This document shows positions 491 through 49,958 of a stretch of DNA of 64,000 nucleotides, piece by piece. The DNA comes from a bacterium (GTDB taxonomy: Bacteria; Hydrothermota; UBA3073; JACQXS01; JAQTXJ01), in assembly GCA_028716385.1 (NCBI GenBank), contig JAQUPX010000003.1, forward strand, positions 62,001-126,000, given 5' to 3'. Each line of letters begins with the position of its first letter. Position 1 is the stretch's first letter. A model generated the notes under the pieces. That model had not been told where the DNA came from, did no database searches, and was given only the letters and a program-made list of their open reading frames with translations. Both the position numbers and the translations under genes were made by a program.

Positions 491-590
491 ATCTTCCTGC
501 GGTAGGCAGGAATTCCCACTGTCACTCCGCCTGAGGCGAACGGGATCTTCGACTTACGCCATGCCTATCGGCAGGCAAGCGGGAATGACA
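491..590. repeat. Cluster of nested palindromic repeats
   Basis: cctgcggtaggcagg, ccgcctgaggcg, gccatgcctatcggcaggcaag within an outer attccc...gggaat frame. Confidence 0.8.
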
Positions 591-36821: not shown

Positions 36822-36985
36822 GTGTTGGTAGCCGCAACCTTTAGGTTGCGCAAACTATCCCGATATATGAAAAGTGTAATTTGTGTTGGTAGCCGCAACC
36901 TTTAGGTTGCGCAAACTATCCCGATATATGAAAAGTGTAATTTGTGTTGGTAGTCGCAACCTTTAGGTTGCGCAAACTATCCCGA
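36822..36985. repeat. 2.7 copies of a 61-bp tandem repeat with internal palindrome gcaacctttaggttgc
   Basis: Units start at 36822, 36883 and 36944; nearly identical. Confidence 0.95.
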
Positions 36986-46820: not shown

Positions 46821-49694
46821 ATGAAAATCGCTTTTATTGGCATAGGCAATCCTCTTAAAGGCGATGATGGCGCAGGGCCGGAAATCATATCAAAAATTAA
46901 AAAATCCCCAAATCCACAATCCACAATCCCTGCCTACCGGTCAGGCAGGCAAAATCCAAAATTACTATTGTGGGACTGCGGGACTGTTCCTGAAAATTAT
47001 CTCGGGAAAATAATAAAAGAATCTCCCGATGTACTTATATTCGTTGATGCGGGGATTTTTAATGCTCCCCCCGGAACTATCAAACTTCTCAATCTAAATA
47101 ATATAGATACCAATTCCATTTCCACACACAGTCTTTCACTGGATTACATTATAAACTGGATTAAAACCGAGATTAAAACACAGGTGTTCGTAATAGGAAT
47201 TCAAGCAAAAAGCACCAACTTCGGAGACCCCATAAGCCGTGAAGTTAAAGAATCCATAAAGTTACTGTCTTCCAACAAAATAGGCGCAGAAATAACATTA
47301 AAAGGATTAGTTCAGGGAGTCGGAATGAGACCCTACTTGCACAAGTTATCAAATAAATTCTCACTAAAAGGCAGGGCAAAAAACTTTCCCGGCGGAGTGA
47401 AATTATGGGTAGAAGGGAACTTAATTGATGTATTACTATTCTTTGATACCTTAGACGGGAAAGATTCCCCGGCCCTTGCTAATATACTCGAAAAAGAACT
47501 ATTCTTCAAAACACCAAAATCCTTCAAGGAATTCAAAATAGAAACTAGCGATGAAATCGGAACCGATTTTGTTCTCATTCCACCGGACATAGCTATTTGC
47601 GACGAATGCCTTAAAGAGTTACAAAGCACTAAAGACAGAAGACATAATTATCCTTTTATAAATTGCATAAATTGCGGGCCCCGCTTTACTATCATCAAAA
47701 ATATCCCGTATGACCGCAAAAATACTACTATGCAGAAATTCACTATGTGCCCCAACTGCGCAAACGAATATAATAACATAAAAAATCGCAGATACCACGC
47801 TCAACCCAATGCCTGTTACGTATGCGGTCCTGACGTAGAAATATCCAAAAAATCAGGGAATAAAGCGCTGACGGAAACAATCAACTTATTAACAAAAGGC
47901 GAAATCATAGCGCTTAAAGGGATTGGCGGATTTCATCTTGTATGCGATGCTACTAATGAATCTGCCGTTAACAAACTGCGGAAACTAAAATCCAGACCTT
48001 TCAAGCCTTTTGCAGTAATGTGCTCAAGTATAGATAAAATAAAACAATTCGCAGAAGTCTCAAAATCGGAAGAAGAGTTATTAACTTCAAATAAAGCACC
48101 CATAGTGCTGTTAAAGAAAAAAAGTAGCAGTAAAATAGCCAAATCAATAGCTCCCGATAATAATTATATCGGCGTTATGTTAGCTTATACTCCCCTGCAT
48201 TACTTGATTGCCGATAAATTTCTATGTATCGTAGCCACAAGCGGAAACACAACGGATGAGCCTTTAATCAAAGATAACGCCGAAGCTAAAAATAAATTAT
48301 CCAAATTCACCAAAAACTTTTTGCTTCATAATCGCCCGATTGAAGTAAGATGCGATGATTCCGTGGTGAAATTTATATCAAACAAACCTGTTTTATTCCG
48401 GAGGGCAAGAGGTTATGCGCCTTTACCTGTAAAACTTCTTTCTACTTCTCCATCCATACTTGCCGTTGGAGCAGAATTGAAAAACGCTTTTTGCATTACA
48501 AGAGAAAACTTTGCGTTTTTATCCCAGCATATAGGAGACTTGAAAAACTACGAAAATTATGAAGTTTTCAAATCCACAATTGAACATTTCAAAAAACTTT
48601 TCAAGATAACCCCGGATATAATCGCTTATGATTTGCATCCCGAATATCTATCAACAAAATATGCATTGGAGTTATCGGGGAAAGACCTCACTAAAATAGG
48701 CATTCAACATCATTGGGCGCATATTGCAAGTTGTATGGCAGAAAACAATATTGATTCGCAGGTGATTGGCGTAGCATTTGACGGGACAGGATATGGAACG
48801 GACGGAAATATATGGGGCGGGGAATTTTTACTATGCACATACACGAATTTTGAACGAATAATGCATTTTAAGTATACGGGACTCCCCGGAGGAGATATTG
48901 CTTCCGTTGAAACCGGACGAATGGCAATGAGCTACTTGTTTGATATGTATGGAACATCCCGACGAGAAAAATCCCAAAAACTAATCTCTAAATGGAAAAA
49001 TTCCGACTTAATTTACAAAATGCTTGAAAATAACTTTAACTGCCCGCTAAGTTCAAGCGTAGGCAGAATATTTGATGCGGTAGCGGCTATAACGGACGTA
49101 TGTCAATTAAATACTTGTGAAGGTGAATCCGCGATGAAACTTGAAAAATTGGCAGAGGAATATATGAACCGTAGGGACATAGCGTGCTATGTCCCCGAAC
49201 CGTATACTTATAAAATAGTAACTCAATCCGCCTCAGGCGGATCCAGCTTGCCTGCCGATAGGCATGGCTTGAGGAATAAAAGTAACTCAAGCTTCCAGCT
49301 TGAAACTTCTAACCACAAGCAAGTCAACGCCACAGCGGACTCCGCAAAAGGCGGAGATGCTTGTGATACAATAGACATTTCCCCTACCATTACTGAAATA
49401 ATGTCTGAAGTCAACAAATCAACTCCTGCAGAAATATCTGCAAAGTTCCACTCCACAATCGCTCACATAGTAAAAGACGGGTGTATAAACATACGAAATA
49501 AATATGCTATAAGTAGAGTAGCATTATCCGGCGGCGTATTTCAAAATAAAGTTTTGACTGAGAGTGCCGTTAAATTATTAAAAGAAGAAGGCTTTGAAGT
49601 TTACACACATTCAATTGTCCCTCCGAATGATGGCGGAATATCGCTCGGACAAGCAGCAATCGCTCAAGCGCTTTATCTCAGCAAAGCTGGGTAA
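46821..49694 (+). CDS. hypF: Fusion of hydrogenase maturation protease (HycI/HyaD family) and carbamoyltransferase HypF
   Basis: N-term FIGIGNPLKGDDGAG...FVDAG...STHSLSLDYI; HypF acylphosphatase GLVQGVGMRPYLHKL; zinc motifs CDECLKEL, CINCGPRFTI, CPNCANEY, CYVCGPDV; Kae1-like GIQHHWAHIASCMAENN...GVAFDGTGYGTDGNIWGGEFL. Confidence 0.93.
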   Translation: MKIAFIGIGNPLKGDDGAGPEIISKIKKSPNPQSTIPAYRSGRQNPKLLLWDCGTVPENYLGKIIKESPDVLIFVDAGIFNAPPGTIKLLNLNNIDTNSISTHSLSLDYIINWIKTEIKTQVFVIGIQAKSTNFGDPISREVKESIKLLSSNKIGAEITLKGLVQGVGMRPYLHKLSNKFSLKGRAKNFPGGVKLWVEGNLIDVLLFFDTLDGKDSPALANILEKELFFKTPKSFKEFKIETSDEIGTDFVLIPPDIAICDECLKELQSTKDRRHNYPFINCINCGPRFTIIKNIPYDRKNTTMQKFTMCPNCANEYNNIKNRRYHAQPNACYVCGPDVEISKKSGNKALTETINLLTKGEIIALKGIGGFHLVCDATNESAVNKLRKLKSRPFKPFAVMCSSIDKIKQFAEVSKSEEELLTSNKAPIVLLKKKSSSKIAKSIAPDNNYIGVMLAYTPLHYLIADKFLCIVATSGNTTDEPLIKDNAEAKNKLSKFTKNFLLHNRPIEVRCDDSVVKFISNKPVLFRRARGYAPLPVKLLSTSPSILAVGAELKNAFCITRENFAFLSQHIGDLKNYENYEVFKSTIEHFKKLFKITPDIIAYDLHPEYLSTKYALELSGKDLTKIGIQHHWAHIASCMAENNIDSQVIGVAFDGTGYGTDGNIWGGEFLLCTYTNFERIMHFKYTGLPGGDIASVETGRMAMSYLFDMYGTSRREKSQKLISKWKNSDLIYKMLENNFNCPLSSSVGRIFDAVAAITDVCQLNTCEGESAMKLEKLAEEYMNRRDIACYVPEPYTYKIVTQSASGGSSLPADRHGLRNKSNSSFQLETSNHKQVNATADSAKGGDACDTIDISPTITEIMSEVNKSTPAEISAKFHSTIAHIVKDGCINIRNKYAISRVALSGGVFQNKVLTESAVKLLKEEGFEVYTHSIVPPNDGGISLGQAAIAQALYLSKAG
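46929..46949. repeat. Palindrome cctgcct-accggtc-aggcagg inside the HycI domain, in frame
   Basis: 7-bp arms; encodes IPAYRSGRQN. Confidence 0.85.
49174..49356. repeat. Cluster of palindromic elements inside hypF, in frame
   Basis: gggacatagc-gt-gctatgtccc (49174-49195); atccgcctcaggcggat (49226-49242); cttgcctgccgataggcatggc (49247-49268); caagcttccagcttg (49288-49302); ctccgcaaaaggcggag (49340-49356). Confidence 0.9.
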
Positions 49695-49724
49695 CTCTCT
49701 TCTAGGTTGAAATGTCATAAATGG

Positions 49725-49752
49725 GTAGATTGAAGCCCTCGCTTCAATCTAC
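49725..49752. repeat. Perfect 12-bp-arm hairpin gtagattgaagc-cctc-gcttcaatctac
   Basis: Direct reading; no T-tract. Confidence 0.8.
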
Positions 49753-49935
49753 TGAAAGTGGAGGCTCTTACCTAGCCCGTACTCTGTCATTCTGAACGAA
49801 GTGATTACAAACCCTTAATTTATTTAGGGTTTTGTTATCCAGAAGCGTAGCGTAGGGAGAATCTATTTTTTGGGATTTGTGTCTTCTTCCGCCTCAGGCG
49901 GATTAAAATGATATAAAAACTTGCAATAAAAAAAA

Positions 49936-49958
49936 CGAGTCCGCCTAAGGCGGACTCG
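49936..49958 (-). terminator. Terminator of citrate synthase built on the ccgcctNaggcgg palindrome
   Basis: cgagtccgcct-a-aggcggactcg flanked by A- and T-tracts; lies 19 bp after the stop. Confidence 0.85.

Follow-up and report, generated by a model that had tools for sequence, protein, structure and literature searches.

The hypF locus analysed here raises the question of how hairpin-forming DNA came to be read as protein within a hydrogenase maturation gene. Palindromes that encode protein are known above all from Rickettsia, and REPs inside genes from a few cultured species. Intragenic REPs with GTAG and CGTC tags were described in 2013, including clusters encoding 43-82 aa and the Rickettsia palindromic elements (RPE) RPE-4/6 (PMC3733652). 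The original prediction for this locus was that five palindromes had entered hypF in frame, in the manner of RPEs. We analysed a window of 64,000 nucleotides (G000:C3:62001-126000; positions below are those of the window unless a contig or locus is named) together with its own genome, G000 (3.27 Mb in 25 contigs, incomplete at 91.5%), in which hypF is located on a 400-kb contig. The sister genome, G001 (JAQTXJ01), is the sole genome of the same genus in our set of relatives. Gene-level counts were obtained with a simple gene caller on a 955-kb sample of the own genome and a 772-kb sample of the sister.

Results

The HypF insertion is absent from homologues

The 957-aa host ORF carries the Pfam domains HycI, Acylphosphatase, zf-HYPF, Sua5_yciO_yrdC, HypF_C and HypF_C_2. 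The predicted sequence, ORF, open frame and hairpins are real, with hairpin arms located at 49174-49195 (GGGACATAGC-gt-GCTATGTCCC), 49226-49242 (ATCCGCCT-c-AGGCGGAT) and 49314-49321/49358-49365 (CACAAGCA/TGCTTGTG). In an alignment with 24 other HypF genes, which the sister HypF entered as two pieces, extra residues between ...PYTYKI and DTIDIS... were found in the own HypF only. They number about 47; the extra stretch had been predicted, at about 60 aa. The sister also provided the empty site that the original prediction had proposed to look for: its sequence ...CTTATACTATAAAAGAAGACACAATAGATATT... is spanned by the end of contig C135 and the start of contig C122, which overlap by 19 nt. Relative to this site, the own gene has a net gain of 141 nt, or 47 codons, and about 11 nt of the ancestral hypF loop are missing at the BIME insertion point. 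The younger hypF insertion postdates the split from the sister species.

The last bases of sister contig C135, AGATCGGA (L068:4128-4135), resemble leftover Illumina adapter sequence in the public assembly JAQTXJ01.

Residues 805-845, which lie between strands 798-800 and 849-852, had pLDDT < 50 in an AlphaFold2 model based on 22 sequences. The remaining HypF was modelled with confidence, and the N-terminal HycI part poorly, probably owing to the few homologues in the alignment. The insertion site is predicted to be the turn of a surface beta-hairpin of HypF, with a disordered loop that lies off the conserved core. Conservation of this core suggests that the own HypF still works, and the insert-bearing protein would be functional.

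The insert is a mosaic of dispersed hairpins

A BLAST comparison of the insert with the genome returned 46 matches, separate sub-segments matching separate loci. The insert is a mosaic of genome-dispersed repeats. Six units were resolved where five elements had been predicted: F, A1 with nested G and B, A2, and D with nested E (Table 1).

Table 1. Coordinates of the host ORF, of the units of the hypF insert and of related features in the window.
Feature	Position	Strand	Description	Basis or relatives
Host ORF	46821..49694	+	957 aa, HycI-type hydrogenase maturation protease fused to HypF	ORF call and Pfam
B-type palindrome	46929..46949	+	CCTGCCTACCGGTCAGGCAGG, HycI-domain loop of the same ORF	
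F	49171..49195	+	GTAG-tagged hairpin GTAGGGACATAGCgtGCTATGTCCC	decayed sister copy; GTAGGGGCATAGC copies in L052 and L058
Young BIME-like insert	49218..49369	+	outward tags GTAAC ... GATAC	sister empty site, own-sister alignment
A1	49218..49274	+	GTAACTCAA[G]TCCAGCTTG[B]CTTGAGG, family-A hairpin (stem GTAACTCAAGCT-tcc-AGCTTGAG) broken by G and B	A+B composite also at G000:C6:195226
G	49227..49241	+	TCCGCCTCAGGCGGA, encodes SASGG, replaces GCT at the A1 hairpin tip	family-A copies without G: C6a and L243
B	49251..49267	+	CCTGCCGATAGGCATGG, nested in A1 between two CTTG 4-mers	
A2	49282..49303	+	GTAACTCAAGCTTCCAGCTTGA, intact family-A copy	
D	49314..49369	-	GTATCACAAGCAtctTGCTTGTG, inverted hairpin (stem GTATCACAAGCA-tct-TGCTTGTG), loop broken by E	
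E	49324..49356	+	TCAACGCCACAGCGGACTCCGCAAAAGGCGGAG, nested in the D loop	copies elsewhere
Copy of B and flank	558..579	-	exact reverse-complement copy of 49247-49268, intergenic cluster	
G	49941..49955	+	TCCGCCTAAGGCGGA, tip of the hypF/gltA intergenic terminator-like hairpin	sister stem common, tip different

The units are of two ages. F is present in the sister as a decayed copy with mismatches in its stem and so predates the other hypF units. The A-A-D unit is young and absent from the sister site. As regards target-site duplications, CTTG flanks B within A1, and none was seen for the BIME when the own and sister sites were compared. In addition, GAACCGTA 8-mers flank F, but their 31-nt spacing misfits a clean in-frame insertion.

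The exact 22-nt match with an intergenic cluster was confirmed. Elsewhere, the elements are not confined to intergenic positions, many of them being located in other ORFs. Moreover, the stretch was not built by independent in-place hits alone, since the A-spacer-D unit, the D/E composite and the A+B composite all recur ready-made at other loci. The A-spacer-D unit is found again inside a called ORF at G000:C3:365104-365214. There, as in hypF, A and D form an inverted pair around the spacer (hairpins at 365134-365193), the arrangement of a BIME or REP dimer.

At the HycI-domain loop that holds a B-type palindrome in the own genome, the sister carries a different, longer insert with a G-like and a GTAG-REP-like hairpin (about L068:1727-1850). 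This single tolerant site has had two insertion histories. The repeated entry of mobile palindromes at tolerant loops of a coding gene is thus borne out by the older F, the younger BIME and the differing own and sister inserts at the N-terminal loop.

GTAG tags and RAYT genes

Family A has 18 copies in the own genome, 17 in the sister and none in the four other genomes of the six searched. Among 154 strong hairpins of the 955-kb sample, GTAG adjoins hairpins 45 times for 3.2 expected, the top value of all 256 tetranucleotides; CGTC is mildly enriched (9 vs 1.9 expected). The own genome contains two Y1_Tnp (RAYT) genes, at C2:340959 and C2:182982, each with GTAG hairpins on both sides as in REPtrons. 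One is flanked by hairpins of the GTAGCGCGAAGCTTTAGCTTCGC and GTAGCGCGACCCTTCAGGGTCGC types, and the second has arrays of GTAGGCGCAGGTTTTAACCTGCG and related hairpins on both sides.

Element F corresponds to the definition of a GTAG-tagged REP, a stem-loop with GTAG at one end. A and D are called REP-like only, because their tags are GTAA and GTAT instead of GTAG: A mostly has GTAAC (GTAGC at G000:C6:93958) and D has GTATC. Degeneracy of the GTAG tag at positions 2-3 has been described (PMC3733652). Families A and D flank neither RAYT gene of the own genome, and no RAYT hit was obtained in the sister, though family A is present there. G, B, E and a 24-nt element carry no tag.

Further GTAG hairpins were observed in the window. 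Three tandem GTAG-REP copies, GGTAGCCGCAACCTTTAGGTTGCG, lie 61 nt apart in an intergenic region (36833-36972). Another GTAG hairpin, GGGTAGATTGAAGCCCTCGCTTCAATCTAC, is found just downstream of hypF (49722-49756), and a paralogue of it elsewhere has G at its tip. At 49789-49866, a repeat GTCATTCTGAACGAAGTG...GTAGGGAGAATCT is broken by another hairpin, AAACCCTtaatttatttAGGGTTT, possibly a case of nesting.

The 15-bp palindrome G and hairpin tips

The genome-wide palindrome search proposed with the original prediction gave a clear result for CCGCCTNAGGCGG: with at most 1 mismatch, 105 copies were found in the genome and none for the reversed control, and 5 in the window for 0.02 expected. Copies of the palindrome TCCGCCTNAGGCGGA number 92 in the own genome and 53 in the sister. 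G006, from a different family of the order, has 101; G030, from a different family of the phylum, has 74, and G125 has 29. Four genomes from three families thus have 53-101 copies each. No copy occurs in 113 of the phylum's 148 genomes, and the reversed control gives 0 wherever copies exist. Several copies in G006 and G030 are located within long ORFs. In CarB of G030, G encodes SASGG, and E. coli CarB has 3 residues fewer at that point.

The own and sister samples contain 57 distinct copies of G, 21 of which are informative in that an empty paralogous repeat exists, chance AT-rich paralogues being excluded. In 10 of these 21, G has replaced 3-9 nt at most 3 nt from the dyad of another hairpin, for about 2.5 expected by chance (p ~5e-5 under a simple uniform model). 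Several further informative copies have imperfect stems. A1 of HypF is one example of such replacement. In another, the array beside the second RAYT gene contains both CGCAGGTTAA[AAC]CTGCG and CGCAGGTTAA[TCCGCCTCAGGCGGA]CTGCG. Similarly, the hypF/gltA terminator-like hairpins of the own and sister genomes have a common stem (AAAACGAG...CTCG) and different tips. Perfect outer stems of at least 6 bp surround only 4 of the 57 copies, because the replacement is often off-centre and consumes part of the stem. These tip replacements suggest that G would spread via exchange of hairpin tips. A broader proposal can be put forward only tentatively and is rather unlikely to hold in full: TCCGCCTNAGGCGGA, with its 15 bp or 5 codons, would be a minimal mobile cassette that replaces hairpin tips and enters coding sequence in frame, by a route undescribed for REPs, RPEs or MITEs, and that expanded separately in several families of one phylum of uncultured bacteria.

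Nesting in hairpin loops was considered for B too and rejected: none of 15 informative copies lies at the dyad of another hairpin. The A1 composite and a case in the own-versus-sister comparison (C2:60580) are exceptions.

Reading frame and insertions in other genes

Only one of the six frames is open across the 155-nt hypF insert, and it is the frame in use. The peptide stretches encoded by the insert include NSSFQLETSNHK and QVNATADSAK. Across the two genomes, composites of D/E type lie outside ORFs and also in four convincing ORFs, those of HypF, L206 (1019 aa in the whole contig), L053 and L213, where they are read in one frame throughout. Of the 13 genic copies of G, some of which may be paralogues, 8 encode SASGG (p = 0.001 on the assumption of five equally open frames). 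Among own-sister indels of at least 12 nt, 9 of the 10 that lie well inside genes change the length by a net multiple of 3, vs 4 of 13 elsewhere, which fits selection against frameshifts.

In the 955-kb own sample, 55 called genes hold at least one element, though some of these may reflect chance or misplaced starts, as with copies near starts. As start sites are uncertain, elements near called starts were left out of the counts of mid-gene insertions. In other genes, B encodes PAYSAGR (7 aa), and the 24-nt element, with 15 of its 19 copies in called genes, encodes GTSRYGGD (8 aa); both correspond to clean gaps in the sister. Further in-gene cases of B, G and GTAG elements also show clean gaps in relatives, and reciprocal cases were found in the sister.

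Some individual proteins may be mentioned. A Sir2-family protein of G006 (L278:679-1551) has about 15 extra residues (NTHPPAGCRAGM...) relative to a solved structure, near the zinc-binding cysteines, in a stretch that looks B-derived. An RsmD-like methyltransferase of the same genome (L276:1010-1633) carries G (read as PPEAD) and a second repeat-like stretch, PARHLAGSEGIPLRASSERGGRQ; its alignment with solved RsmD structures did not cross the insert. Finally, proteins of G000:C1 and C2 that share a C-terminal IEE...NPF.KSTVISY...IYDI.GKLV (for example C1:280279-281199, C1:316120-317181 and C1:375715-376989) have been entered repeatedly by B, G, GTAG and 24-nt elements, in or before this region.

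Discussion

Overall, the hypF insert is probably an intragenic insertion of REP/BIME type, the elements having been dispersed by a GTAG/RAYT (TnpA-REP, Y1) machinery. Small non-autonomous palindromic elements would have entered the turn of the HypF beta-hairpin in at least two steps. The GTAG-tagged hairpin F would have landed before the split from the sister species, and the A-A-D unit, with its tags outward, would have arrived later, G, B and E being already aboard or nested afterwards. Elements of GTAG type would move by RAYT action on single-stranded hairpins and land mostly between genes; we infer that A and D were moved by RAYT too. Within genes, survival would require an open frame and a tolerant loop, out-of-frame insertions being purged by selection. 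The hypF insert would persist because its sole open frame matches that of the gene and because the loop is predicted to be disordered and to lie away from the conserved core.

A refinement compatible with this explanation has, in our view, an even chance of being correct. RAYT would move only A, D and F, and G, B, E and the 24-nt element would spread otherwise, by tip exchange in replication or repair or through another transposase. The lack of tags on these four elements, the position of G at hairpin dyads with loss of 3-9 nt as opposed to that of B, and the own and sister terminators with one stem and differing tips all favour it. On the other hand, many copies of G in coding sequence have no obvious outer hairpin, and some of the palindromes without tags may be tagged ones that have decayed.

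Other origins have been weighed against the REP/BIME reading. The elements are very unlikely to be RPEs or their direct homologues, even though they behave alike, entering unrelated genes in frame, with a reused frame and one open frame, and even though RPE-4/6 belong to the CGTC-tagged REPs (PMC3733652) and CGTC shows mild enrichment beside hairpins here. The CGTC tag is absent from F, A, B, D, E and G of HypF, GTAG is enriched far above CGTC, and family A is confined to this genus among the six genomes searched. The original likening to RPEs therefore stands for in-frame behaviour, the closest known systems being GTAG-tagged REPs/BIMEs with RAYT. We regard the resemblance to RPEs as an analogy of behaviour and do not claim homology. 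The possibility that the hairpins are native to hypF, as structural or regulatory features that arose in place, is extremely improbable: template switching at quasi-palindromes can create palindromes, and the 24-nt and 15-nt elements are very short, but each unit has exact or near-exact copies at many unrelated loci, and the insert is missing from the sister site and from other homologues.

An artefact of metagenome assembly could be suspected, given that the genome is incomplete, that repeats mislead assemblers and that the sister contigs break exactly here. Such an origin is highly unlikely in view of the open frame across 141 extra nt of a conserved gene on a 400-kb contig, of a combination of units that is unique to hypF within the genome, and of comparable in-frame inserts throughout the own-sister alignments. 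Finally, the insert might be skipped by the ribosome through translational bypassing, as in mitochondrial genes of Magnusiomyces capitatus, for which bypassed in-gene hairpin inserts are reported in work cited in PMC6649704. As the insert is a net multiple of 3 with an open frame, bypassing would be needless; 9 of 10 in-gene indels moreover preserve the frame, and we consider this mechanism barely credible for hypF.

Intragenic REPs and RPEs are already known, and the hypF insert alone adds one more member. Relative to the open-licence literature, what is new is that many proteins carry such a load, that the composites are nested, and that a 15-bp palindrome which replaces hairpin tips occurs in several families. 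The proteome of an uncultured bacterium is loaded with palindromes in dated layers, namely the older F common to both species, the younger BIME and the differing inserts at one loop, and like hairpins have entered many other proteins in the own genome and in distant relatives. Such layered inserts form a natural series for how selfish DNA turns into protein sequence, and the nesting of palindromes in the tips of other hairpins is a testable clue to the multiplication of tiny elements.

Several known systems can be compared with these elements. Like MITEs of the ERIC/RU and Correia types (PMC2229807, PMC2759123), they are non-autonomous, mainly intergenic and sometimes fused in frame to genes; those MITEs are 100-200 bp long and mostly have terminal inverted repeats, which are not seen here, and target duplications, none of which was seen for the BIME. 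As with the IS elements that target REPs (IS1397 and others, PMC1525189), REP hairpins serve as insertion targets, but the inserted sequences here are palindromes of 15-33 nt without a transposase gene, and 3-9 nt of the tip are lost. RPEs share with them in-frame insertion into unrelated protein genes, one preferred frame and the loss of stem pairing with age. Unlike RPEs, each of which is one element of about 100-150 bp, the present units occur outside Rickettsia, have no CGTC tag and measure 15-33 nt within a composite. GTAG REPs/BIMEs and REPtrons with their RAYT (PMC3733652, PMC2817692, PMC8266576) likewise consist of short stem-loops with GTAG beside hairpins and inverted pairs, and RAYT genes flanked by hairpins and intragenic in-frame units are common to both. 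In contrast to these systems, the tags of A and D are GTAA and GTAT, untagged palindromes are nested within the array, and the untagged 15-bp palindrome is itself abundant and present in many ORFs.
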